Shown one piece after another: positions 2,795 to 45,362 of a stretch of 46,672 nucleotides of DNA; within the stretch, counting starts at the first letter, position 1, and each line of letters begins with the position of its first letter. Under the pieces are notes generated by a model. It was not told where the DNA came from. It was given only the letters and a program-made list of their open reading frames with translations, and made no database searches. The DNA is from a virus: positions 1 through 46,672 of IMG/VR virus record IMGVR_UViG_3300025543_000050. One strand, given 5' to 3'. A program made the position numbers and the translations under genes.

Positions 2795-5700
2795 TCATCT
2801 TTCAGGACCGTATAGCATCCTTTGGAGTGCCAAGTCTTCACCTTCCTTCATCACTTGATAAAGGTGCTCGCCTGTGGACCACGCCTGGTTCACCCCAGGA
2901 ATCCCGAGAGCAGCGCCAACAAACTTGGTACCGCCCTTCCATTGACCTTTGGTGATCTCTTCATCAGTGAACCCGCGAGCAGCCATTTCAGGGATTGTTC
3001 TTATTCCCTGCTCGATCACACCCAGCACTGGCGATGGGTTGTACCGGTACTCACCAAGTGATCCGTTCACCATGTCCCGAAGGACCGGCACTGATTGGGC
3101 TGGGTAAGTGGCAGTAGCCAGCAGCATCTTCTGGACATAAGAGTCGTCATCGTCATCGTCAGGCAGTCCGTTGCGCATCAGCTCCTCGGTGAGGACTGGC
3201 AGAACGAAGTAGAACATCGCCTTCGCGGCCACGCTGGTCACAGAGTACCGACCAGCACGAGCGCCTTGGACCAGATCCCTCTCCATGTTCCAGAGCGAGC
3301 TGAAGAAGGTCATGAACATGGTGAACATCCGGAACGCTTCAGACTGGTTGCGCATCAGGCTGGCCATGTCTTTGGTAGCACCGGACCCCTGAATGTTTTC
3401 AACAGCCCAGTCGGCGTAACGGAAGGCACGCTGCTCGTCACCCCACTGCTCCATGCCCTTGCTGTACGCGGCATGCCATGTTGGCAGGTCGACAAGGTAG
3501 GTCTGGATGTAGGCGATGTGCTTCATCGAGGCTTCTTGAACTGCTGCCTTGAACCCGCTCTTGCCTTCAATCACTTTCATGGCACTGTTGATCTCACGGT
3601 CCATTGTTTTGGCCCGGTGATTCATAACTTTTGAGTTATCGACAGCAAACTGCCACGCCGCCTTCATGGTATCTGGAGACCCGATGATGTTTCTCAGAGC
3701 CTTGTACACATGCTTAGGCCCAACTTCACCGGCCGTGTTATAGATACCCAGCAGCTGCATAAGACCGGTGCTGGCTTTGAAGCCCATCACACCCAGAGTC
3801 ACACCGAAGCGGAGCTTGCCGAAAGCCCTTTCCCATTCGTTTTTGGTGCGACCCTCGCGTCCTTCCTTGGCGATATCATTCAGCCATGGCTTGAACTGGG
3901 CGAACTCCTCAGGACCAATCACTCGTTTGATGGCGTCGGCCACCGGCTTATTACGGAACAACCGGTTGATCTGACGCACCGCATCGTGGAATGAGATGTA
4001 CTGAATCGTCTCGTGGAAGTGATTGTGAACCACATCAAGACTTAATCGGATCGGGTCATAGAACCCTGTCCGCTCGTTGGTTGCTCCGGCAGTGACTTGC
4101 TGCTGCAGGCTGGCGCCACCGGCGAACATAGAGTCGGTTTCGTTGTCCGCTTTTTCCTGTGATTCCTCGCCTCTCTGCGATCTGTACGGGTCGTACTTGA
4201 CCGGGTAATAACCACCACGGAACTCACCCCATTTGGTTTGAATAGGGGCCGCTTCAACTTTCGGCGGTGTCAGGCCTGTGGTCTTCCGGTGAACCTCAGC
4301 CAGCATCGGGTAGAGAGTGTCCATCTGATCCCAGATCTTTTGCACTAGGATCCAGTCACTCTCTGTCATGTATGCCAGCACTGCCTGCAGTTTTGGATTG
4401 TTGAGGGTGATGTCTTCTTCAACGTCAGGTCTGGCCCAGCCCTCACCGAGCAGCATCTTGCGCAGGTTACTCCGGTTGCCGACATTCAAAGCAACCGCCA
4501 GGACTTGGTGCCCCATCAGCACGCCATCGTTTTTTGCGTCCTTTATTTCAGGGATCAGCAGCTTTTTCAGGTGGCGCTTCTTGTCCTCCGGGGACCGCTG
4601 TTGCAGCAGCTCCATCACCGGTGCGCCCACTTCTTTCCACAGCTCCATGGATTGGTTGTAGGCCTCATTCATTGGCTGCATGATCAACCGGTGCATGAAC
4701 CCGGCACGCTCACCGCCATCCAGCATGGTCATCACCCACGGCATTTTTGACATCTGCGCCATGGCCCACCGGACAGTTTTGCGCTCCTCATTGACGGTGG
4801 TTCTCTGGGCACTGTAGACCGTGGGCTGCTCGTCCAAGTGAGTAACCACCTGATCAACCAGCTCGGCAAAGTTTCGCTGATCCTCAAGCAACGTGATCTT
4901 GTCGAGATACTTGGCCACATGCTCTATGTTCTTCACAGAGTTGTGGATGCCCTGCAAGTCGGAGAACTTGACCTTTTTCCAGTGGACCGAGTACAGCTCA
5001 TCCAGCACAGCCGGGTGCAGCGCCAGCGCGTCACCCTCGGTGGCGGTGCGCTTCTCAGCCCATGACTGCAGTGACTCATTTTTAGTGTCGACTGATTTCA
5101 TTGACTTCGATTTACGGAACTCGAACCGACCGAGGATCTTATCGATCTGCTCCATGTATCCGTTCTCAGCCCTCATGATCCGCTGACGGATTGACTTCTT
5201 GTTGTACCTGGCCATGAAATCAACGGTGGCTACAGTCTTCGCTTTCGCATCAGTGGCCTTGCGAGCGAGGAAGTAATTCAGCAGCTGGCGCATTTTGGCC
5301 TGTGCCGCTGCTTCAGTGTCACCCTGTGACAGAGCAACAGCAGCCTCCTGTGCCGCACGGATCTCAGCCTTGCGATATTTCTCAGGGAACATCTGGGTGT
5401 AGTTCAATCGAGCGATACGGTCCTCAGCCATCTGCTCCATCACCGCACGGTCGACCGACTGCTTCTTGGGCCCGCTGCGGAGCATTCTGAGCTCGGTCAG
5501 CAGCAGCTCAGCTTTCTGCTCGTTCTGAAGCGCCAGGTCTGCCATCTGAGCGATGGTACCGTCGTTCATGATGTCACCGTGCCGGTCGAGCATGACCTGC
5601 TCAGCAGCAGCTTCTGCGGCCTCTGTGAGGGTCGGCGTTCCGAGCAGGGTTTGGATAAACTCCTCACCGGTAGAGAATCCGAAGAAGGCGGCAGCGTCAT

Positions 5701-8700
5701 CAGGAGTCACACCTTCAGCACCTGGCACGGTCATTGCAAGCAGCTTCTGGGGGACGACTCTTGATTTCACGCCCCTCTTGTTTGTGCGATCCTCACCCAC
5801 CATCTCTTTGACAGTTTCCCGATCCATTTTGAATTGACCATTGGTCAGTCGTTCTATGGCCAGATAGATGGGTTGCTCTGATAAACGCTCTTTCTCGTCA
5901 TCAGTTACATCAGCTTTCTCTTGTCTCCACCAGAGCTGCTGGGTGCGCGTGATCTCATTGATCAGCTTAATGCGTAGTGTTTCGGCGGCCTCATCTTTGA
6001 CCTTGGCCACTTTTTCTTTGTAGGCAGCAAACTCTTCCTCGGTTTTGCCGGCCATGGCAGCGTCGGTGAACAATGGTGCGAACTTGTCGCGAGCCATTGC
6101 AATCTCGATTTGCTCTTCAGTGGCAATCAGACGGTCGAATACCTGACGCATCTCATCGTCAAGGTTGTTATCCAGCCGACCGCGCAGGGTGTTGTAAAGC
6201 TGCGTCATCCACCGGGCGAATACGCGGAACGCGTTCTGCAGCTCTATGGTAGGCGCCTTGCCTTCCATTAGATACTGCTCCCACGCACGGGCAAACTGTT
6301 CATGGGTGGCACGACGGATTGCAGAATCCTTGACAGCATCGCCGGTAGATCTGTATTTGATGTAGTCCTCGACATCCTGCTGAGTGATGGACCCAGCTGC
6401 GCCGGTGGAATCCTGACCTTGTGCAAGCAGGTTGGAAGACCCAGCCTGTGCCGGGTCGAATGCTGCGTTGACTGATCGAATGTTAGCAGGGTCGAACACC
6501 CCGACAACCAGGTAGGCGTTGTCACCGACATCTTCAGACTGTCTGACACTATCGAATCCTTTCTCCTGCAGGACGTCCATTACATAATCTGAGATTTCCC
6601 AGATGTCATCAATCGCCGGGTCATAGTTCGGGCTGTCTCTGTCTTCCATGACATCTTCGTTAAACTCTGCCCAGCCGCCCTGCTCATTGAACGCATCGAT
6701 AATGATTTGTCGGTGCTCTGGGTTGTCAATCAGGTCAGCAGTATTCTCAAGTTTCAAATACACCGGGTAAACATTTTTACCGTATTGCTTTGAATACCCT
6801 TCATCCACCGAGAAGAAGGTAGTCCCAGCTCTGCCAGGAGTGAACGCTTCTATATTTGCGGCTTGACTGCCGTGATACCACACCTTGCTGGTGTCGAACC
6901 CAGCTGCTTCAGCTGCCTGCTTCGATTGTTCCAGCACGTTGCCGCCGGTGCCGAGATAGCGGTTTGCCTCTTTGGCGATCTTGTCAGAGTGACGGAGCAA
7001 CCAGCTGTTAATGGCAGGCAGATGCTCACCGTCGTGCTTCATCTCCATCTCGTACATGAAGTGTGCAAACTCATGCAGGAAGGTGCTGAGGTTGGAAGAC
7101 TCAGTCAGTCTGATCAGGCTGTTGGCGGGGTCGTAGTATCCGTTGACTTGGGAGTTTTCTTGCCCTTCGGCGTTGAAGATTTCCTCTCCGACCGGAACAA
7201 CTTCATCCAGTCCACCTTGTGCAAGCCGTCCTCCGGTAGTATCCACGACGCGTTTTGCTGCTTCTTCATAACTTATATCCGCTGATTGTCTTGCGCCCAG
7301 ATCACCGTACAGGCGCTTCTCGTAATACCATAGCATAGCCTGAATGTCCGCAATAGACACATCCTTGCCACGACGCTTCAGGTTTTTCTGGGCCTTGTTG
7401 ACAGCTTCCAGCATGAATGACCGGTCACTGGCGTTATACGGCGCATCCTCTATATTCTCGAATGCCTGCTTGTACAGGGTATTAGCGGCTCTCTCAACAT
7501 CCGTGCCATTTTTGTAGTTCTTTTTCTCATACGAGTTTCGGTGCTCAACAGTCTTCGACAAGGCCTCGTCATCAGAGATGTTTGGCTCACCGATCATTTC
7601 CTTGAATCGAGCCAGACCAATCTTTCGACCCTTGCTGTCAGTGGTGTTCTCACCGCTGCCTGATACATTTTGCAGCAGTGACCCTCTGTATCTGTTGAAC
7701 GTGCGGGTCCACCAGCGATCCATTGTGAGGTATCCGTGCGACCCCATCAGGTTGGCATAGAAAGCGCCCAGCTTTGGACCGAACACGATGGCCGCACGAG
7801 GCAGCGTAACGTCAGCTTTATAGTCTGTTGAAAAATCAACACCTTTTTCTTTTGCCAGTTTGTTCAACTCACTGACGGTCAACTCTTCCATGAGATGGTT
7901 GTGCATCTCAACCGGACCCATCTCGTCGAGAAGGTTCTGGATGTTCTTAATATTAATGTTAATGCTTGCCTGACGGGTGTGTCCTCGTGATGTCGACAGC
8001 TTCCCGGTCTTCTTGTAGTTGCGATAGATATCAACAGCCATCGCGAAGTTGGGCACGACCTTCTGACCGTCAGATGTAATGGCGATCAGCGATGTCATCA
8101 GGTTACGAGCACTATCGTCAGTCTTCAGCTCAGGGAACTCTTCACCGAAGATGTCCAGAGCGCGTTGAAACTTTTCACTATACCAACCAGCACCCGACTT
8201 CTCCGGGGTCTCCATCTCGAATAACACTTCCTCAACCATCCACTTGGCGATCTTGGATGATGTCCCCGGTGACCGGTCGTCTTTTGGAATGTGTCCGTGC
8301 TTGCTTCTCTGACGAGCTTCTAAGGCCGCAGCAATGTCACGAGTTTTGTGAGTCTTGTCGGGGTGGAGACCGAACCGCTTCAGGGTCTCTGTGCCTTTAC
8401 GCAGCGACACTGCTTGATAGAACAGGACTCCCTGATTGTTTACCAGCTTGCCAATCGCAGCCTTCAGCGACTGGGATGGTTCCCAGTTGTTTATGTCGCC
8501 AGACAGTGCTGCCTCGATTGCCCCAGCAGGGTTGTCGAATCCTAACCAGTCGTTGGAATCCAGCGCCTTGAGAAACTGGCGCTCTTGTGGTGACCAATGC
8601 TCTGCATCCAACACCTCATCAAACCCGGACTCGATGTCCAAGTTGTTCAGGAAGTTGTCACGCACCGCATCATAAACCTCGGCTGCGTTATCGTATGCAG

Positions 8701-11700
8701 GCTGATTGAACACCTCATCCTGCGCACCCTCATTGACAGCCCAGTCAGGCAGCAGCCCGATCTTCTGATCAGCGAAGTGGGTATCTTCAACCTTGGCGGT
8801 ACGGTTGGTCTCACCATAGGGACCATAGTTTAACCAGCTGTTCTGGCCACGGGTTTCGCTTGTAAGAGCTTTCCTGGCCTCAGGTGAGTACATGGCCCAG
8901 TGAGCACGCCACGCGTTCTCCTCGCCTGCTGCACGGAATCCGACGCCTTCTTTAGCATGACCGAAGTAATCATGAACCACACGGAACACGTCGTTGGCCA
9001 GCATTGGCACGCCGTTTGCATCCTTAAACTTGGTGTCCTGCAGCAGCGGGTTATCCAGTGGATCGAATGTCTCGTCGCTGCCGAACCCATCCTTGGTGCT
9101 GAACACCCACATGTGGTTATTGTCGTTGATGTCGTCGATGACCAGACGCGGGGTTGCTGCGTAAGGGTCGATCAGATTCCCTTCAGCATCTGTCTCGGTG
9201 ATGAACTCAGCAACGAACCCGGTCTCGAGGATGGCCTCGTACTGGGCCACCGTCTCGTCGATCATTTGTTGATAGGCAGCCTTTACCGCTGGATCACTGG
9301 GGTTGTGCTCCATGGCGTCGAATGCCGCAGCAATGCGCTCAGCACGAGCCGGATCGACCGGGGCGTACATGGTTGGCGGGGTGTATTCCAACCCAACCGA
9401 TTCCATGTACTTCCTGGCAACACTCTCAATTACTGGGTTGTGCTTGGGTTCGAACCCTTCGATGTTGCGGGGGAGTCCTTGGAGGCTGCCGTCGCTCTCG
9501 CGGCCATTCCCCTGATCCTGCCCACTCTGTTGTTCCAGGAGCCGAGTGCCTCTTCGTACTCGCTCAGGCTTTTGTACTGACTTGGTCTCGGACTGTTTGG
9601 CAGCTTCTTCATTACTTATCTCCATGAACACCACATCAGGGGTGCCCATTGTTTCAATGTCCCATCCTTCTGGGGCTAATTCAGGGTTGAATGTTTCTCG
9701 TCCTACTTCCACAAAACCGTACTTGGCATACCCTTCGGTAAGTGGTCCTTCAAACGCATCAAGACGACGCACACCGTTGCGAATCGCCTCGGGCACCATC
9801 ACGCCCATTGCGCCTTCAATGGTGGAGTCAGGGTGTTTAAATACTGAAACCAGGTCACCTTGCCGAGTGATAGCAAAGCCAGCCTTACCATCATCGTATA
9901 GGAAAAGGTCCATCTTGGCATAGTCGTCTTTCGGCCAGATGACTACGGCCGCGCCATTCTTGTGGTCAGCCTTGGCTTTACTGAGTGCTTTGTAAAACTC
10001 ATCAACAATCGCAGTATCCTTCAGCGTAATGTTACCGGGCAGCTCTCCACGAGGGGTGCGTTCACCGGCGGCCTCGCGTTCTTTTTTAGCATTCTCCATT
10101 GCCTTGTCAGCAGATGCTTTGTCGGTGCCGATACCGAACGACAGTCGCGGACCGGTCAGTGTTCCTGATTCACTGGCAACACTCTGACTTTGCAAAGACG
10201 CTTGAGCTTTTTCTATCGCACTTTGAATCTCAGCAGGGGAGGCCCCGGCGACATAAAACTCATCACCGGACACATGGTAGGCCTTGCCATCGCTGGACTC
10301 GTGCAGTGCTGAGGCAATCAACTTCAGCATCTCATCGCCTGCGTTATGACCGAGAGAGTCATTCACAGCTTTAAGTGAGTCGGCATCGATGCTTGCAATT
10401 GCCGGGTATTTACCGGTGTCTTCAGAAAAAGCTCGACGGTTGTTAATTCCTGTCAGCTCGTTGCGATACAGGGCGTCGTATTTTTCATCAGGTGACATTG
10501 CATCAAAGGCAGCACGACGTTGAGTATCAACTCGACGATCAGACTGCCGGTTGTCAGTTTGCACGGTTTCACTTGCCGCACGTCGATCTGTGGCCGGTGC
10601 TACTCTTGATTGTATTTCTTCCGGGGATATTTCTGGGCGCAGTGCATCCAGTCGACCGGTCTGCGGCCCCTCTACCCTGAATCCGCGATCGGCATAGAGC
10701 TTGGCAACCGGTATCCCGGTGCGCTCTGACAGGGCTGCAAAGTAGGCAGGAACCACTTCACTCATGACACGAGCGTACTGCGGGTCAACCTGCCCGGTGT
10801 CGATGAGTTGGTCGCGCACGGTTTCGTAGATCCGTTGTGACTCAACATACTGAACTGACTGCTGCTCTTTTTCGGCAATGATTCCTTTGATCTGGTTCTC
10901 AAACTCAACCGCATCATTGGCCAATCTGAACGGTGTCGGAAGACTGGCGTCCGTGGTCATGTGTTCGCGCAGTGCTGTGAAGTGGTCGGTACCGGCCAGA
11001 GCTACACCGAAGTCGGCTATTGGTACTTGAATCTCCCCACCAAGGGTCGCTGCTTCGCGCACCTGAGCTGCCAGCAGCTTTAGCCCTGGGTCAGCATTGA
11101 TCTCCTCAGGCGTCTTTGTCTGCAGATACAGAGCGGTCTGAGGACCATCGATAAATACAGTGGTGTTCTGACCGGCATCAGCCTTCTCAACAAACTGCTT
11201 GAAGACGTCATCACTGCGCTCACGCACCGACAATTGCGACAGCGCGTCGTTGACCAGATCCAGATGAACCTGCGCCTTGCCGGCCTGCTTGGCCCTTTGG
11301 TCTTGATATGCAACAGCACTGCTGACGACGGTGGACGGGAGACCGATGGTAACGGCCGCCTGAGCGCCTTTGTTCGCAGCCTCGAGAGCACGGGGTGCCT
11401 GCTCGAAGATGTCATCGAGTGTGGACGATAGCGTCTCCTCGGTGAATGCGCCGTCATCAAACAGCTGCATGAACTCACCGGTCACGATGTTGCTGGTTTC
11501 CTGGAGCCCTTCAACAACGCCCTCGGTACCGACAGCTGTCAGATACCGACCGGCGATTTGACCTGCAATTTCCCTGCCAGTTTGGGTACCCAGAGCCTGC
11601 TTAACCTTGTTGCGGATTATTCTACGCATCACAGGGGTGACAGTACGACCCAGTGCTCGCAAGGTAACCATCTCGAGAGCGGCGTTTATACCACCCACAA

Positions 11701-12793
11701 CAATAGCACCGGTGGCTGCCAGGTCTGGATCCAGTTTTCGGCCACCCTGTCTCATGCCCTTGACGAAATCCGGGTCAAGGTTCTCTGTCGACAGTCTGGT
11801 CGGATCCAGCGGTTCGGAATAATCACGCGCAGGCTCAGGCACCGGGGTGTCCGGAAGCGGGACGACGTGCTGTTTGTTGTCGGTCATCTCAACAAATTCG
11901 TTGAACGCCAGACCGGCTTCAAGGTTGAATGCTCCGATGGCTACACCAGCACGACCACCCAGCTTTGCGCCAGCGATCCCGGTGGCGACCGCGCCAGGAC
12001 CGGTTACTACACCTACACCGAGACCAATGCTGCCGCCTATAGCTGTTCCCTTCAACCCTTCAGCAAGGATGTTACCCATGATGGGCAGCATCTCTGAAGC
12101 AACAATAGGTGACTCCTGGAGCCAGTTGTAATTGGGTTCTCCGTTTTTAGAGATGATTTCTTCGTTGTTGAATCCGGTGTTGGTGACAGTGTCACGGCGC
12201 TTCTGTATATCAGCAAGGTCGGCCATGTCCTGGTCGGTTACACCGAGCTCATTGACGCCAAGGTGCTTCCACAATCGACCCATGCCGATCTCGGATTCCC
12301 GCACGATATCTTGACCGCGTTGGAATGACTCAGTCAGATGATCAACGTATCCTTTTCCGAGGATTGCATCTTCCGCTTTCATCATGGCGGGGACTTCGTC
12401 GTGAACCACCATGGCCGAGTCGTAGTTGGTCAGGATCTCATGGGTTGCCGGGTTCTTGCGCATCATCTCAGGGATGTTGAGCATCTTGACAGCCTCGGCA
12501 TGCTCAATGCGCGGTCGATTGCCACGAATAGATTGGAGTGTCAGCCCAGTGGATTTCTTGAGTTTAAGCTCTTTGGCACCCTGCTCCGGGGGCACCTTCA
12601 TCGCTTCACTGAGTGTGCCGGGTGCAGTAGATCCGGTCAGTGACCGGATTTCATCCATGTCAACACTGTCAAACTGAGAGGGTTTGGCTGAGGGTTTTTT
12701 GACACCTGCCGCGACGACGGGCTCTGCTTTCTGAGGTGTAGTATCAGTCAGTGCTCTGATTTCGTTCAAGTCGACATTGTCAAATTGCGACAT
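2795..12793 (-). CDS. Giant polyvalent ejection-type protein (3332 aa): GGDEF, acetyltransferase-like, zincin and ADP-ribosyltransferase-like domains
   Basis: This single uninterrupted frame covers 21% of the genome and lies where T7-like phages encode ejected core proteins. Seen in order: a duplicated SQFDxVDxxEIRxLT motif (residues 2-16, 39-53); a glycine-rich hydrophobic stretch (249-300); a GGDEF diguanylate-cyclase-like domain (770-900) with ELTGINNRR, DADSLKAVND and SGDEF (842-846); an acetyltransferase-like region (915-1060); a domain with HDYFGH (1274-1279); an unnamed large-polyvalent-protein region (about 1450-1720); a zincin motif HEFAH (1907-1911); an ADP-ribosyltransferase-like domain starting WYHGS (1972-2110) inserted before the rest of the zincin (about 2150-2200); then about 1100 mostly helical residues with hydrophobic stretches and an acidic PDDDDDD run near the C-terminus. 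Polyvalent phage proteins are known to be injected with DNA and to protect or manipulate the host. Domain names are from motif recognition; activity is not shown. Confidence 0.85.
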   Translation of the reverse strand: MSQFDNVDLNEIRALTDTTPQKAEPVVAAGVKKPSAKPSQFDSVDMDEIRSLTGSTAPGTLSEAMKVPPEQGAKELKLKKSTGLTLQSIRGNRPRIEHAEAVKMLNIPEMMRKNPATHEILTNYDSAMVVHDEVPAMMKAEDAILGKGYVDHLTESFQRGQDIVRESEIGMGRLWKHLGVNELGVTDQDMADLADIQKRRDTVTNTGFNNEEIISKNGEPNYNWLQESPIVASEMLPIMGNILAEGLKGTAIGGSIGLGVGVVTGPGAVATGIAGAKLGGRAGVAIGAFNLEAGLAFNEFVEMTDNKQHVVPLPDTPVPEPARDYSEPLDPTRLSTENLDPDFVKGMRQGGRKLDPDLAATGAIVVGGINAALEMVTLRALGRTVTPVMRRIIRNKVKQALGTQTGREIAGQIAGRYLTAVGTEGVVEGLQETSNIVTGEFMQLFDDGAFTEETLSSTLDDIFEQAPRALEAANKGAQAAVTIGLPSTVVSSAVAYQDQRAKQAGKAQVHLDLVNDALSQLSVRERSDDVFKQFVEKADAGQNTTVFIDGPQTALYLQTKTPEEINADPGLKLLAAQVREAATLGGEIQVPIADFGVALAGTDHFTALREHMTTDASLPTPFRLANDAVEFENQIKGIIAEKEQQSVQYVESQRIYETVRDQLIDTGQVDPQYARVMSEVVPAYFAALSERTGIPVAKLYADRGFRVEGPQTGRLDALRPEISPEEIQSRVAPATDRRAASETVQTDNRQSDRRVDTQRRAAFDAMSPDEKYDALYRNELTGINNRRAFSEDTGKYPAIASIDADSLKAVNDSLGHNAGDEMLKLIASALHESSDGKAYHVSGDEFYVAGASPAEIQSAIEKAQASLQSQSVASESGTLTGPRLSFGIGTDKASADKAMENAKKEREAAGERTPRGELPGNITLKDTAIVDEFYKALSKAKADHKNGAAVVIWPKDDYAKMDLFLYDDGKAGFAITRQGDLVSVFKHPDSTIEGAMGVMVPEAIRNGVRRLDAFEGPLTEGYAKYGFVEVGRETFNPELAPEGWDIETMGTPDVVFMEISNEEAAKQSETKSVQKPERVRRGTRLLEQQSGQDQGNGRESDGSLQGLPRNIEGFEPKHNPVIESVARKYMESVGLEYTPPTMYAPVDPARAERIAAAFDAMEHNPSDPAVKAAYQQMIDETVAQYEAILETGFVAEFITETDAEGNLIDPYAATPRLVIDDINDNNHMWVFSTKDGFGSDETFDPLDNPLLQDTKFKDANGVPMLANDVFRVVHDYFGHAKEGVGFRAAGEENAWRAHWAMYSPEARKALTSETRGQNSWLNYGPYGETNRTAKVEDTHFADQKIGLLPDWAVNEGAQDEVFNQPAYDNAAEVYDAVRDNFLNNLDIESGFDEVLDAEHWSPQERQFLKALDSNDWLGFDNPAGAIEAALSGDINNWEPSQSLKAAIGKLVNNQGVLFYQAVSLRKGTETLKRFGLHPDKTHKTRDIAAALEARQRSKHGHIPKDDRSPGTSSKIAKWMVEEVLFEMETPEKSGAGWYSEKFQRALDIFGEEFPELKTDDSARNLMTSLIAITSDGQKVVPNFAMAVDIYRNYKKTGKLSTSRGHTRQASININIKNIQNLLDEMGPVEMHNHLMEELTVSELNKLAKEKGVDFSTDYKADVTLPRAAIVFGPKLGAFYANLMGSHGYLTMDRWWTRTFNRYRGSLLQNVSGSGENTTDSKGRKIGLARFKEMIGEPNISDDEALSKTVEHRNSYEKKNYKNGTDVERAANTLYKQAFENIEDAPYNASDRSFMLEAVNKAQKNLKRRGKDVSIADIQAMLWYYEKRLYGDLGARQSADISYEEAAKRVVDTTGGRLAQGGLDEVVPVGEEIFNAEGQENSQVNGYYDPANSLIRLTESSNLSTFLHEFAHFMYEMEMKHDGEHLPAINSWLLRHSDKIAKEANRYLGTGGNVLEQSKQAAEAAGFDTSKVWYHGSQAANIEAFTPGRAGTTFFSVDEGYSKQYGKNVYPVYLKLENTADLIDNPEHRQIIIDAFNEQGGWAEFNEDVMEDRDSPNYDPAIDDIWEISDYVMDVLQEKGFDSVRQSEDVGDNAYLVVGVFDPANIRSVNAAFDPAQAGSSNLLAQGQDSTGAAGSITQQDVEDYIKYRSTGDAVKDSAIRRATHEQFARAWEQYLMEGKAPTIELQNAFRVFARWMTQLYNTLRGRLDNNLDDEMRQVFDRLIATEEQIEIAMARDKFAPLFTDAAMAGKTEEEFAAYKEKVAKVKDEAAETLRIKLINEITRTQQLWWRQEKADVTDDEKERLSEQPIYLAIERLTNGQFKMDRETVKEMVGEDRTNKRGVKSRVVPQKLLAMTVPGAEGVTPDDAAAFFGFSTGEEFIQTLLGTPTLTEAAEAAAEQVMLDRHGDIMNDGTIAQMADLALQNEQKAELLLTELRMLRSGPKKQSVDRAVMEQMAEDRIARLNYTQMFPEKYRKAEIRAAQEAAVALSQGDTEAAAQAKMRQLLNYFLARKATDAKAKTVATVDFMARYNKKSIRQRIMRAENGYMEQIDKILGRFEFRKSKSMKSVDTKNESLQSWAEKRTATEGDALALHPAVLDELYSVHWKKVKFSDLQGIHNSVKNIEHVAKYLDKITLLEDQRNFAELVDQVVTHLDEQPTVYSAQRTTVNEERKTVRWAMAQMSKMPWVMTMLDGGERAGFMHRLIMQPMNEAYNQSMELWKEVGAPVMELLQQRSPEDKKRHLKKLLIPEIKDAKNDGVLMGHQVLAVALNVGNRSNLRKMLLGEGWARPDVEEDITLNNPKLQAVLAYMTESDWILVQKIWDQMDTLYPMLAEVHRKTTGLTPPKVEAAPIQTKWGEFRGGYYPVKYDPYRSQRGEESQEKADNETDSMFAGGASLQQQVTAGATNERTGFYDPIRLSLDVVHNHFHETIQYISFHDAVRQINRLFRNKPVADAIKRVIGPEEFAQFKPWLNDIAKEGREGRTKNEWERAFGKLRFGVTLGVMGFKASTGLMQLLGIYNTAGEVGPKHVYKALRNIIGSPDTMKAAWQFAVDNSKVMNHRAKTMDREINSAMKVIEGKSGFKAAVQEASMKHIAYIQTYLVDLPTWHAAYSKGMEQWGDEQRAFRYADWAVENIQGSGATKDMASLMRNQSEAFRMFTMFMTFFSSLWNMERDLVQGARAGRYSVTSVAAKAMFYFVLPVLTEELMRNGLPDDDDDDSYVQKMLLATATYPAQSVPVLRDMVNGSLGEYRYNPSPVLGVIEQGIRTIPEMAARGFTDEEITKGQWKGGTKFVGAALGIPGVNQAWSTGEHLYQVMKEGEDLALQRMLYGPER

Positions 12794-15435: not shown

Positions 15436-17721
15436 TTAACCGCCGATATCGACCTGCGGGGTGACCGACAGGATCGTAAGGGGTAGTGGTGACCGTTGCT
15501 CAATTCTGATGCCGCCGCCCCGAGACCATGTGGGTTCAATGTAGATTTCCTCTTTCGTCGACCTCAACTCGATGGCGTCGTACCCATCACTCAGTGTCCG
15601 TGGTTTGATCTCACGCATCTCACCGGTGCTGCCGTCTTCCAGCCTTGGGCCGACCCAACCTCCACGAGAGTTCTCGGTCTCGATGACCACCTTGGACACT
15701 GACTGAGATCTTATCTTATCCGGATTGACCGGTGCACCTTGATCGATGTCAAGCAACTCGACGACGGTGGTGAAGGGTAGCCCGACATGAACCACGCTGT
15801 ATTCGCGAGGCAGTGTGATTGCGCCGCCGGAGACTACGAGATTATCGATGACCACCCCGTCTGCCAGCACGGCCACTGTCTTTCCCTCGAGATGATCCAG
15901 ACCGCTGATATTATCAGCAGCCACACCGTCGTAGGTCAGACCGCAGTCCACACAGAACGCGTCGACGGCCGTCGCCCAGTTGCGTGCTTCAAGTCGCTCG
16001 ACGTACCGGACGGTGCTGCCGTCAATGGTCCGCTTAACGATGACATAAACGGCGTCCCGCCCATCCTCAGTGATCGAGGTGACTGACTCAAAGACGCCAT
16101 CAGTGACGTGATGAGTCCATCCCCAGACCTCGTGTTCTTTCTGGTAGGTCAGACTCAACAGGGTGCCATCGCTGCGGATCATCCAGACAATGCTGTACGG
16201 CTCTTCAGCGTAGGTCATGTCGTCAATCGTATAGCCTTCGAACAGGTGCTCGGACATCAGACTGATATCGTTGCCTTTGAATTTATCGTCGGTGAACTCG
16301 TAACCTGTGTCACGGACCCTGGACCCTTTCTCCTGCACGAAGATGATCGAATCACCCACAATGATGGGAGCCACGTAGGACATGCCACGATAGCTCTGAA
16401 TCTTCACGCCCACCGTGTCTGGGGTCAGCACCTCATCCTGCCCTTCAGTGACCCGCCAGATACCACCAGCTGTGCCTAACACCAGCCCGTTCACCGGGAT
16501 GATGTGACGGATCTCATTGATCTGTCTGGCTGCGATAGTGAACTCAAGGCTGTCATCATCCCTTGATGGTCTGGACTTCCTCAGAGAGTCATAGATGGCC
16601 GTCTGAGTTGCCCACAACGTCTGGGGGTTTTCGTTAGTGTTGGCAAACATCTTACGCTGCTGATAGAAACCAACCGTCGCGGGTTGGTTATCAGCGCCTG
16701 TGAAAGGCTGATTGTCTTCAAGCGGCGCATCGCTGACCACCGGCGCGGTGTTGAAGTCAATGAAGTTCGGGTCTTTAGAATCGCCGATCCATCCAAAACT
16801 GCCGCTGTTGCCGTTTGGGTCTTTATAGATCCGGTAATACTCAACATCAGTCACTGAGTTCCAGTCCAGCCTCGACCCGTATGTGGTGGTGTGAGATGAA
16901 ATGTTGTGTGAAACCTCGGCGCAAGGCAGCGACTCTACACCATCCACTACGGCAGCGACCTTGTACCGATAGGTTTTGTTGTTCGCGCCGCCGCCGCCTC
17001 CTGCTGTACTCAATGCCAGCCCCGTCGGTGTAGTCACCGTGGGTGAAAAATCCACATCAGTCAGGGTCCATGATGAGTGACCGGTTCTGCTCAGCTCTCT
17101 GGGAACATACCCTGGGTGGCAGATTGTCATTACATCAGCGGTCTGAACGTAGGACAGTCTCGGAAGGTCAGCAGTGACATAGGTGGTGGTGAGCGTGAAC
17201 ACACGCGCAGCCGTACCGCCCGAGGTGTATGCAGTGTATGCAGAACCATCGACACCATCGAGGGTGTAAGTGTTAGCGCCGGTGGAGGTGATTCGGTAGG
17301 TTTTGCCATTCAGCTCGGTCATGCCGCCGACAGATGCGATGTAAACATCATCACCGGTGGAGTGACCGTGAGCGACATCAGTGATCTCAACCGGGTTGGC
17401 AGCAGTGGCGCCTGTGATTGTTCCAGCAGTCTCAAGCACGAAGCCGCCGTCCTTGATCACACGCATCTTCAGGTTCTCGAACACCAGCACATAAGTCTGC
17501 TCGGTGTTGAAGCTGAAGGGAATCAGTCGCGCCTTTGCTGAGGAGTCGTAGATCTCACCAATGAACTTGGTCCCGGGGCGTGAGTACAACCCACCCTGAG
17601 CCCGGATGAACATGTTTTCAGCAAACCTGACGCCATTGGTGTATTTGGCCAGGTCAGTGCGAGACCGCATCGCAGGTGCAAGTTCACCACCCGTGAAGTT
17701 ACGCTGAATGACCTGTGGCAT
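15436..17721 (-). CDS. Tail tubular protein B (T7 gp12-like nozzle)
   Basis: This 761-aa protein has the typical N-terminus of the podovirus nozzle family: RNFTGGELAP, RTDLAKYTNGV, ENMFIRAQGGLYSRPGTKF and then IPFSFNTEQTYVLVF. The central part shows the QQRKMFANTNENPQTLW and RQINEIRHIIP segments that are standard for the family. In T7 the homologue forms the hexameric nozzle that closes the tail and binds fibres. It overlaps the gp11-like gene by one base at 17721 and is followed by the core-protein genes, which is the normal T7 gene order. Confidence 0.9.
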   Translation of the reverse strand: MPQVIQRNFTGGELAPAMRSRTDLAKYTNGVRFAENMFIRAQGGLYSRPGTKFIGEIYDSSAKARLIPFSFNTEQTYVLVFENLKMRVIKDGGFVLETAGTITGATAANPVEITDVAHGHSTGDDVYIASVGGMTELNGKTYRITSTGANTYTLDGVDGSAYTAYTSGGTAARVFTLTTTYVTADLPRLSYVQTADVMTICHPGYVPRELSRTGHSSWTLTDVDFSPTVTTPTGLALSTAGGGGGANNKTYRYKVAAVVDGVESLPCAEVSHNISSHTTTYGSRLDWNSVTDVEYYRIYKDPNGNSGSFGWIGDSKDPNFIDFNTAPVVSDAPLEDNQPFTGADNQPATVGFYQQRKMFANTNENPQTLWATQTAIYDSLRKSRPSRDDDSLEFTIAARQINEIRHIIPVNGLVLGTAGGIWRVTEGQDEVLTPDTVGVKIQSYRGMSYVAPIIVGDSIIFVQEKGSRVRDTGYEFTDDKFKGNDISLMSEHLFEGYTIDDMTYAEEPYSIVWMIRSDGTLLSLTYQKEHEVWGWTHHVTDGVFESVTSITEDGRDAVYVIVKRTIDGSTVRYVERLEARNWATAVDAFCVDCGLTYDGVAADNISGLDHLEGKTVAVLADGVVIDNLVVSGGAITLPREYSVVHVGLPFTTVVELLDIDQGAPVNPDKIRSQSVSKVVIETENSRGGWVGPRLEDGSTGEMREIKPRTLSDGYDAIELRSTKEEIYIEPTWSRGGGIRIEQRSPLPLTILSVTPQVDIGG

Positions 17722-43553: not shown

Positions 43554-43872
43554 GAACAAAGTCGAGAAGTATCTGGACAACGAAATCAAAAAGCTGGGAG
43601 GGACCACGCGGAAGTGGGTCTCTCCTGGACGTGACGGTGTGCCAGACAGACTGGTCCGGGTGCCCGACTGGCCACTGGGCGTTGTTAATGTCGTTGAGGT
43701 TAAGACCCTGTCCGGCAAACTGCAAGAGGAGCAGAAGCGAGAGCACGTTCGTCTGACTGATGAGGGGTGGCTGGTCTACACCGTCTACGGTCATGAGGGG
43801 GTCGATGATTACATTGCCAAGATCAAGCGAGATCTGATCGATCCTTCCAGGATCATGGGTGGCCATTACTAA
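43540..43872 (+). CDS. VRR-NUC domain nuclease
   Basis: This 110-aa protein is a single VRR-NUC domain: NKVEKYLDNEIKKLGG, RKWVSPGRDGVPDRLV with catalytic Asp36, VVEVKTLSGKLQEEQ with Glu53 and Lys55 and the following Gln. Such stand-alone nucleases cut branched DNA and in phages are nearly always next to an SNF2 helicase, as here. It overlaps the metalloprotease gene by 14 bp and the helicase by 1 bp (TAATG). Confidence 0.9.
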   Translation: MGVRENKVEKYLDNEIKKLGGTTRKWVSPGRDGVPDRLVRVPDWPLGVVNVVEVKTLSGKLQEEQKREHVRLTDEGWLVYTVYGHEGVDDYIAKIKRDLIDPSRIMGGHY

Positions 43873-45362
43873 TGAGATCACCGCAGGACTTACACGACTA
43901 CCAGCGGGAGTGCATCCTGCACCAGCTGCAGCACAATGACTCAATGCTGTGGCTGCAGATGGGGCTGGGAAAAACGGTTGTCACCCTGACCACCATCGTT
44001 GATCGCATGCGTGCCGGACAGGTGAAAAAGACTCTGGTCTTCGGTCCACTCCGGGTGATCAACTCGGTGTGGAATCGGGAGGCAATCAAGTGGAGTCACA
44101 CTCAGCACCTGCGATTCAGTATCGTCCGGGGATCACCGGAGAAACGGGTCCGTCGCCTGTTTAACAATGCCGATATTTTTCTGATCAACTACGAGAATAT
44201 GAACTGGCTGGCCGACACCTTCAACCACTACTACATCAGTCAGGGCAAGCCCCTGCCCTTTGATATGGTGGTCTACGATGAAGTGTCCAAGCTGAAACAC
44301 AGCGGCAGTCTGCGAGTGGCCGGCGGCAAGCGTGACCGTAAAGACAGATCTGGCAGAATACATGAGGTCAAGATCACCGGCTGGCGCAAGATGATCAATC
44401 AGTTTAAGTATCGCACTGGTCTGACCGGGACACCGGCGAGCAACGGTTACCTGGACCTGCACGGTCAGTACCTTGCCGTCGACGGGGGGCAGCGCCTCGG
44501 TGAGTACATCACTCACTACAAGAACAGCTACTTCATTCAAGACTACAACGGGTGGAAGTACACCCCGACGAAGCTGGGCAAGGAGTGGATAGAACACAAG
44601 ATCTTCGACATCACCAAGAAAATGGATGCCGCCGACTATCTCGACATGCCTGAAGTGAAGGTCATCAACATGATGATCGACATGCCACCAAAGGCCAGGA
44701 AACATTACGAAGAAATTGAGAAGAAGATGTTCACCGCCCTCGACTCCGGTCGGGAGATCGAGCTGTTTGCCAAACAAACCATCTCGAATAAATGCCTGCA
44801 GATCTGCAACGGCGCACCGTACCTCAGCCCATTCAGCAAGGAGTGGGAAGAAGTCCACACCGCCAAGCTCGAGGCACTGGAAGAAGTGATGGAAGAGGCG
44901 GCGGGCCAACCTGTGCTGTGTGCTTACAGTTTCCAGAGTGATGCTGAGCGAATCACCAAGCGGTTCGGTAAGAAGTACAGGGTGGTGAACCTGACCGCGA
45001 CGTCGTCGGCCAAAACACAACAGGTCATCGATGACTGGAACGCCGGCAAGATAGACATGATGCTGGGTCACCCGGCATCCATGGGGCACGGTGTCGATGG
45101 GCTGCAGGAGTCGGGCAGCATCGCGGTCTGGTTCGGCGTCACCAATAACCTGGAGTACTACGAGCAGCTCAACGGCAGACTCGCTAGACAGGGGCAGACT
45201 AACGCTGTGTCGGTCATCCGGATCCTGTGCAGAGACACCATGGATCTGGTGTCAGCTGACGCGATCAACCGCAAGACCGACGATCAGGAAGGTCTGAAAG
45301 AAGCAGTAGATCGATATAGGAAAGGTCTGATCAGCAACGACTTACCGCTGACGTTCATCTAG
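43872..45362 (+). CDS. SNF2-family helicase/ATPase
   Basis: This is a 496-aa protein. Motif I is MGLGKTVVTL (about 29-38), motif II VVYDEVSKLKH (about 133-143; DEVS instead of DEAH), motif III LTGTPASNGYLDL (about 181), and the C-terminal lobe has DDWNAGKIDMMLGHPASMGHGVDGL and QLNGRLARQGQ with the arginine finger (about 435-445). It translocates on double-stranded DNA and probably works with the VRR-NUC nuclease in processing replication or recombination intermediates. Its TAG overlaps the stop of the convergent lysis gene. Confidence 0.92.
   Translation: MRSPQDLHDYQRECILHQLQHNDSMLWLQMGLGKTVVTLTTIVDRMRAGQVKKTLVFGPLRVINSVWNREAIKWSHTQHLRFSIVRGSPEKRVRRLFNNADIFLINYENMNWLADTFNHYYISQGKPLPFDMVVYDEVSKLKHSGSLRVAGGKRDRKDRSGRIHEVKITGWRKMINQFKYRTGLTGTPASNGYLDLHGQYLAVDGGQRLGEYITHYKNSYFIQDYNGWKYTPTKLGKEWIEHKIFDITKKMDAADYLDMPEVKVINMMIDMPPKARKHYEEIEKKMFTALDSGREIELFAKQTISNKCLQICNGAPYLSPFSKEWEEVHTAKLEALEEVMEEAAGQPVLCAYSFQSDAERITKRFGKKYRVVNLTATSSAKTQQVIDDWNAGKIDMMLGHPASMGHGVDGLQESGSIAVWFGVTNNLEYYEQLNGRLARQGQTNAVSVIRILCRDTMDLVSADAINRKTDDQEGLKEAVDRYRKGLISNDLPLTFI

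Follow-up and report, generated by a model that had tools for sequence, protein, structure and literature searches.

The polyvalent proteins of phages and conjugative elements, as described in the available parts of Iyer 2017 (PMC5512222), carry a zincin-like metallopeptidase (MPTase) and an ADP-ribosyltransferase (ART) domain; autoprocessing by the MPTase was proposed there, and "variable inserts" were noted between the two C-terminal helices of the MPTase. Here we describe a giant protein encoded in IMG/VR virus record IMGVR_UViG_3300025543_000050, a podovirus-like record whose full 46,672 bases were analyzed (hereafter, the window). Like the proteins in that account, it is a giant multi-domain late-gene protein with a zincin-like MPTase and an ART; however, its ART lies inside the zincin, bracketed by two short motifs that end in Gln. 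In the available sections of Iyer 2017, we found neither an entire effector domain within the MPTase nor any cargo exchange at that point or cleavage motif. Zincin processing of polyvalent proteins has been proposed since 2017, and no cleavage site was found in the literature covered; the Gln motif supplies a concrete candidate site.

Other described systems share parts of this arrangement. DdrB of phage P1 is likewise an MPTase-bearing internal protein that is proteolytically cut; Iyer 2017 cites its processing to 76 kDa ahead of packaging. The available text of that source does not establish its site or protease, and we liken it to the window protein by description rather than by sequence. 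In the N4 virion RNA polymerase (vRNAP), an ejected giant protein, an HExxH domain precedes a large helical C-terminal part, as in the window protein, although no nested ART was found in the available part of the account (PMC12633501). Bordetella phage BPP-1 bbp10 and the proteins of Vibrio phages MZH0603 and 1.185.O have the same kind of gene place and the same zincin with an empty slot; in both Vibrio phages the loop still contains an LKQ motif. The best match to the ART fold is cyanophage A4 pre-ejectosome chain 9k3a_B (Z 8.6, rmsd [root-mean-square deviation] 4.7, 139 aligned residues), whose chain range spans 944-1600. Our literature searches on motif, insertion, or processing returned no report of a Gln motif or of cargo exchange; as far as these searches reach, three things are new: whole effector domains serving as inserts, the exchange of inserts at a single point, and a zincin-linked bracketing Gln motif.

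The features of the giant protein that bear on the nesting are as follows.

2795-12793 (-), giant polyvalent protein of 3,332 aa, a single open reading frame (ORF)
6953-7141 (-), first part of the zincin (residues 1885-1947): two strands, the HExxH helix, and two helices, from alignments and model
7061-7075 (-), HEFAH (residues 1907-1911), two zinc-ligand His and the general-base Glu, invariant in alignments
6926-6937 (-), left Gln motif VLEQ (residues 1953-1956), at the same place as LKQ of uninserted relatives
6419-6925 (-), inserted cassette of 169 aa (residues 1957-2125), bounded by the Gln motifs
6467-6886 (-), ART-PolyVal domain (residues 1970-2109), from PF18760 and ART fold
6866-6880 (-), WYHGS (residues 1972-1976)
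6779-6823 (-), TTFFSVDEGYSKQYG
6473-6499 (-), VFDPANIRS (residues 2099-2107)
6419-6430 (-), right Gln motif LLAQ (residues 2122-2125)
6182-6382 (-), second part of the zincin (residues 2138-2204), from alignments and model helices
6269-6304 (-), HEQFARAWEQYL (residues 2164-2175), where the zincin resumes
6278-6280 (-), E2172, candidate third zinc ligand (E of AWEQY), invariant and helical in the model
6194-6229 (-), FRVFARWMTQLY (residues 2189-2200)

An earlier note on this DNA had claimed that an ART-like domain is nested in a zinc metallopeptidase, with HEFAH followed by an ART unit running from WYHGS to VFDPANIRS and then by a second zincin segment that holds a candidate ligand Glu. Each element stood at the positions given above. 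HEFAH is the sole HExxH of the protein and lies 257 residues from HEQFARAWEQYL. Both zincin halves align to four uninserted relatives with 49-53% identity, whereas the middle falls in a gap of those relatives; the two segments are common to proteins with and without the insert. Across 42 aligned rows (window included), and again across 46 uninserted rows, the H, E, and H of HEFAH as well as E2172 show no variation. The insert matches PF18760 (ART-PolyVal) with an E value of 4.6e-12 and 47.3 bits (cut-off 31.2).

Structure prediction agrees. The model of residues 1873-2241, built from the 42 rows (mean predicted local distance difference test [pLDDT] 78), has strands at 13-16 and 21-24 (model numbering), an HExxH helix at 30-47 that contains HEFAH, helices at 53-62 and 64-73, the ART at 78-239, and, after a low-confidence linker, helices at 266-275, 281-305, and 311-332. 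The model of the uninserted relative L003 (pLDDT 87, predicted template modeling score 0.81) gives the same series of elements without the ART (13-16, 21-24, 30-48, 51-62, 64-75, 90-99, 105-129, 135-158). HEQFARAWEQYL sits in a long zincin helix of the window model rather than outside the fold, and this helix has a counterpart in the uninserted model. Alignments and models thus confirm the predicted placement of the ART between the HExxH helix and the helix bearing the invariant Glu. A chance match was rejected on the alignment of both segments and the PF18760 score, and an insert outside the zincin, or a second segment unrelated to it, was rejected on the alignments and both models.

Solved zincins match the metallopeptidase weakly, and the case for a zincin is therefore built on its HExxH, its invariant residues, and the family as published. 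Foldseek found no match to the uninserted zincin model at an E value of 0.001 or better (first row ArdC 6i89, E 0.82), and the best rows of a second structure comparison, all weak, included a zincin, the catalytic region of anthrax lethal factor (Z 4.3-4.6), and ArdC (Z 3.0-3.3). The best Pfam match, DUF6782 putative metallopeptidase, scored 14.7 bits, below the cut-off of 27. PDB sequence searches with the window segment and with zincin profile A5 gave no convincing match (second row of the latter, thimet oligopeptidase, E 0.77).

The ART part of the model (residues 78-239) aligns to AcrIF11 6kyf (Z 7.9) and to ParT, tankyrase, and PARP (Z 6.4-7.0); this VIA-align comparison on the window model bears mainly on the ART. 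A His-Tyr-Asp active site is given for the ART in the available part of Iyer 2017 (PMC5512222). The window ART has the His (in WYHGS) and, by alignment, the Asp of FDP. It differs from ART-PolyVal PF18760 in being nested in a protease. It also has Phe where half of the rows have Tyr (among 8 aligned rows of A3, by eye, 4 Tyr, 3 Phe, and 1 Trp), and its own activity is therefore not certain. Because AcrIF11 ranks among the closest ART folds, an anti-defense role is one possibility for the ART.

The slot is occupied in other proteins as well, and by other domains, which the earlier note had not anticipated. We compared 100 non-redundant zincins (99 plus the distant L204). Of the collections behind these comparisons, one kept the best 80 of 561 relatives and one, for the ART, 80 of 170; individual relatives are given by locus number. 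The spacing from HExxH to the second helix has two peaks, with 86 of the 100 below 130 residues (44-104 in the spacing listing) and 14 at 232-464; 29 loci that lacked a match to the right-hand pattern were omitted from the first spacing counts. The 14 filled slots hold ARTs in nine cases (window, L002 in two stretches, L035, L036, L038, L039, L095, L204, and L217; that of L038, at 28.0 bits, is under the PF18760 cut-off), a ParB-like domain in one (L040, phrog_1033, E 1.7e-5), and unnamed domains in four (L037, L042, L045, and L066), for which Pfam returned no family. The L037 cargo (4133-4684) matched no PHROG either. The cargo of L042 (6482-7021), L045 (199-720), and L066 (6521-7030) shares HNTESA and GYDGVIT/GYDGVVT motifs and might be divergent ART-like.

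L204, with a spacing of 417, comes from an alphaproteobacterial metagenome-assembled genome, and since its zincin is a distant one, filling of the slot probably took place on more than one occasion. One pair allows the filled and the empty state to be compared at the DNA level: L036 and L024 are 92% identical up to 6501 and match again from 7094 (88%), with 592 bases between the flanks in L036 and 67 in L024. L004 has ART-like stretches ahead of its zincin and none inside. Among bacterial genomes, ART matches occurred in 3 of 398 and zincin matches in 4 of 398 and 2 of 297, and newly fetched zincins held no ART.

Both ends of the insert carry the Gln motif. The loop of several close uninserted relatives already holds FDxLKQ, FDxIKQ, or a similar sequence (such as VLKQ); the inserts start after such a Gln and finish in another (LLAQ, ILAQ, IYKQ, or LFQ). 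Gln stands to the left of all 14 inserts (AEKQ in L035, KQ in L217) and directly to the right of 13. In the exception, L204, the NLLAQ that ends the ART is followed by another domain and a Pro-rich linker.

A Gln ending also precedes the zincin as a whole, regardless of the preceding module (31 matches against 3.1 expected in a first count). The motif [ILVF][LFYKRIM]xQ occurred there in 42 of 97 proteins against 9% in the control (p 4.7e-19); when nine other residues replaced Gln, only Lys was mildly raised. The looser [LFYIM]xQ, picked after the data had been seen, occurred in 89 of 96 proteins against 30% (p 1e-37), and none of nine other residues was enriched at this junction. The Gln codons vary (53 CAA and 47 CAG; the 100 cases include 46 distinct dicodons), a pattern that indicates selection at the protein level; a DNA-level recombination site as the cause of the motif was rejected on these grounds. 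In the window protein, the candidate motifs outside the insert are as follows.

7217-7228 (-), RLAQ (residues 1856-1859), candidate Gln motif ahead of the zincin, by analogy with the junction test
8414-8425 (-), LFYQ (residues 1457-1460), candidate Gln motif between modules
9530-9541 (-), LLEQ (residues 1085-1088), candidate Gln motif between modules

The Gln ending of ARTs tracks this zincin. ARTs were sought with alignment A3, from which the tail was excluded, so that Gln did not steer the search. Tails ended in Gln in 38 of 40 anchored ARTs in zincin ORFs and in 1 of 66 in ORFs without this zincin, where the endings were mostly A, S, or G; after thinning, the counts were 33/35 and 1/44. Because some counts depend on the anchoring rule, we also report two other anchorings (42/44 against 1/51; 43/48 against 1/61). 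The main count omits ARTs below 20 bits or short of the profile end and five unanchored tails (L185, L199, L201, L202, and L245), none with the zincin and none with Gln. L035 (VTVE, in both other anchorings), L209 and L229 (in the second of these), and L070 (IVAN, in the main count) are probably anchoring artifacts, yet they count as misses there. Among loci fetched after the pattern had been fixed, with repeat contigs excluded, Gln was found in 4/4 with the zincin and 0/8 without. The comparison group includes long multi-module proteins (L121, 2,011 aa; L132, 2,702; L137, 4,414; L155, 4,325; L203, 4,132), so the contrast is not only one of long against short proteins. Some comparison proteins bear another HExxH that the zincin profile does not match. 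The ARTs of L121, L126, L137, L155, and L203, which have this other kind of HExxH, end in LMAA, LMYA, LLAS, or ILAA; perhaps these proteins contain a different zincin clade with a different site.

An unrelated module family, A7, behaves in the same way: in zincin ORFs, Gln ends 20 of 21 anchored tails and four unanchored tails are all LFQ/FFQ, whereas without the zincin Gln ends 0 of 6 anchored tails (LFA, AFS, MFS, TFA, or FFK). The ART modules of L125 and L128 (7941-8409) are 94.7% identical in DNA over 469 bases, ending at about the FDP of the ART, after which the two diverge into NLLHQ (with zincin) and VLTAG (without). This 469-base match is the sole DNA match between the two contig stretches, a sign of recent ART module exchange.

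The reading we favor, and think rather probable, is that the ART is a cargo cassette swapped into the zincin loop at a Gln motif that is the zincin's own cleavage site, making the cassette excisable. In close uninserted relatives the loop between the HExxH helix and the third-ligand Glu helix already has a Gln-ending motif, and cassettes with the same kind of ending would have been exchanged into it, leaving a motif at each end. From these patterns we infer that the zincin would cut the giant protein at Gln motifs, either once the virion is assembled or once the protein has been ejected into the host. An ART of ~169 aa would be freed by cuts after Q1956 and Q2125, and the Gln motifs lend indirect support to such release by the zincin. 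If the zincin does cut after Gln, the other effector modules, located ahead of it, would also be split from the C-terminal ejection part, and the cut zincin would remain as two pieces kept together by its fold. More tentatively, and somewhat less likely than not, this clade could be a polyprotein-cutting protease for hydrophobic-x-Gln with an exchangeable effector cassette in its own fold, excising its cargo and splitting itself on ejection as a built-in timer, while other clades would have their own sites, such as the Ala or Ser endings in some giant proteins with another kind of HExxH.

Several observations weigh against cleavage by the zincin at Gln. L027 (LVVT) and L066 (LMFN, the A7 exception) have the zincin and no Gln. 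L200 and L218 have Gln and no zincin was seen; L200 stops short close to the end of its contig and L218 is truncated by such an end, and because ORFs cut in this way could hide a zincin, we read both as such cases. Over the whole protein, [ILV][LFY]xQ is only about twice as dense ahead of the zincin as behind it. Resolution of the ART tree is poor, with good support for 8 of its 76 inner branches; the best tree has 18 changes of each label, and the 3 independent pairs on supported branches include a mean of 2.4 that agree and 0 that oppose, and with so few supported branches we attach no formal significance. Gln at P1 is not known to be typical of zincins. The N4-type Roseovarius Plymouth podovirus 1, which has another kind of zincin, has Gln after its ART (VTILQQ), and no Gln motif was seen just before its second HExxH; since its zincin belongs to another clade, this control is ambiguous.

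A further point against it is that 150 of 161 zincin ORFs (unthinned) also carry the C-terminal region of the window protein, so that Gln could track phage lineage or another gene. The motif might then be the site of another protease, of the phage lineage or the host, that still releases the ART while the zincin has some other job. The A, S, or G endings of ARTs without this zincin, maybe the site of another protease, would fit this account. However, the zincin is the one peptidase-like domain noticed as common to these proteins (flanking genes were not searched for proteases), and L131 and L196, only partial separators of zincin and lineage, have the zincin and keep Gln without detectable C-terminal homology. 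We consider another protease unlikely.

It is less likely still that the motif is uncut and simply caps the end of a domain or remains from the exchange of modules, with the giant protein remaining one chain whose zincin acts, if at all, on host proteins. Modules have clearly been exchanged at these points (L125/L128; L036/L024), and N4 vRNAP, another protein with an HExxH domain, enters the virion unprocessed according to the available part of Iyer 2017 (PMC5512222), which counts against zincin cleavage too. Yet one residue type is fixed while its neighbors and codons vary, the Gln occurs in unrelated module families almost only alongside this zincin, and a recombination scar would be visible at the DNA level. 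A nested domain acting as a lock, under which one or both enzymes would stay inactive until the domain is displaced by ejection or by a ligand, is very improbable: the ART is joined to both zincin halves near the active-site helices, but the model stretch directly after it (239-261) is of very low confidence, and a slot whose cargo is unrelated in some proteins (ParB-like, unnamed) and missing from 86 of 100 makes a specific lock unlikely.

If the Gln motif is indeed a cleavage site of the zincin, it predicts cuts in dozens of phage giant proteins and delimits their effector modules by rule. A cargo slot in a protease would also be a simple route for phages to swap injected effectors, some of them perhaps anti-defense enzymes.

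With its 3332 aa, unrelated GGDEF, ART, and zincin domains, and late-gene neighbors, the window protein belongs to the phage-type polyvalent proteins. Its C-terminal third, probably the ejection part, matches phrog_9880, and it contains an LPD22-like region that scores below the LPD22 cut-off. Based on family matches of the neighbors, tail and endolysin-like genes adjoin it; among named phages, the tail protein at 15439-17721 is nearest to that of Vibrio phage MZH0603 (58%). Three other phages (BPP-1, Pseudomonas phage AF, and Pseudomonas phage UFJF_PfDIW6) also encode a giant protein at this place, with internal virion proteins and a structural lysozyme or endolysin as its neighbors, and because of this equivalent gene place the window protein is probably an ejected internal virion protein. 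Its packaging and injection are probable on gene place only. One further domain was identified.

10085-10459 (-), GGDEF domain (residues 779-903), PF00990 E 4.3e-12, signature SGDEF at 842-846

With SGDEF replacing GGDEF, this domain is a phage-borne, perhaps injected, diguanylate cyclase-like module. Right after it, residues 914-1060 (9614-10054, -) match phrog_2563 and appear acetyltransferase-like by eye; a Pfam search of approximately this stretch returned no match. PADLOC gave no match. A SNF2/DEAD-type helicase gene lies at 43872-45362 (+), on the strand opposite to the late genes.
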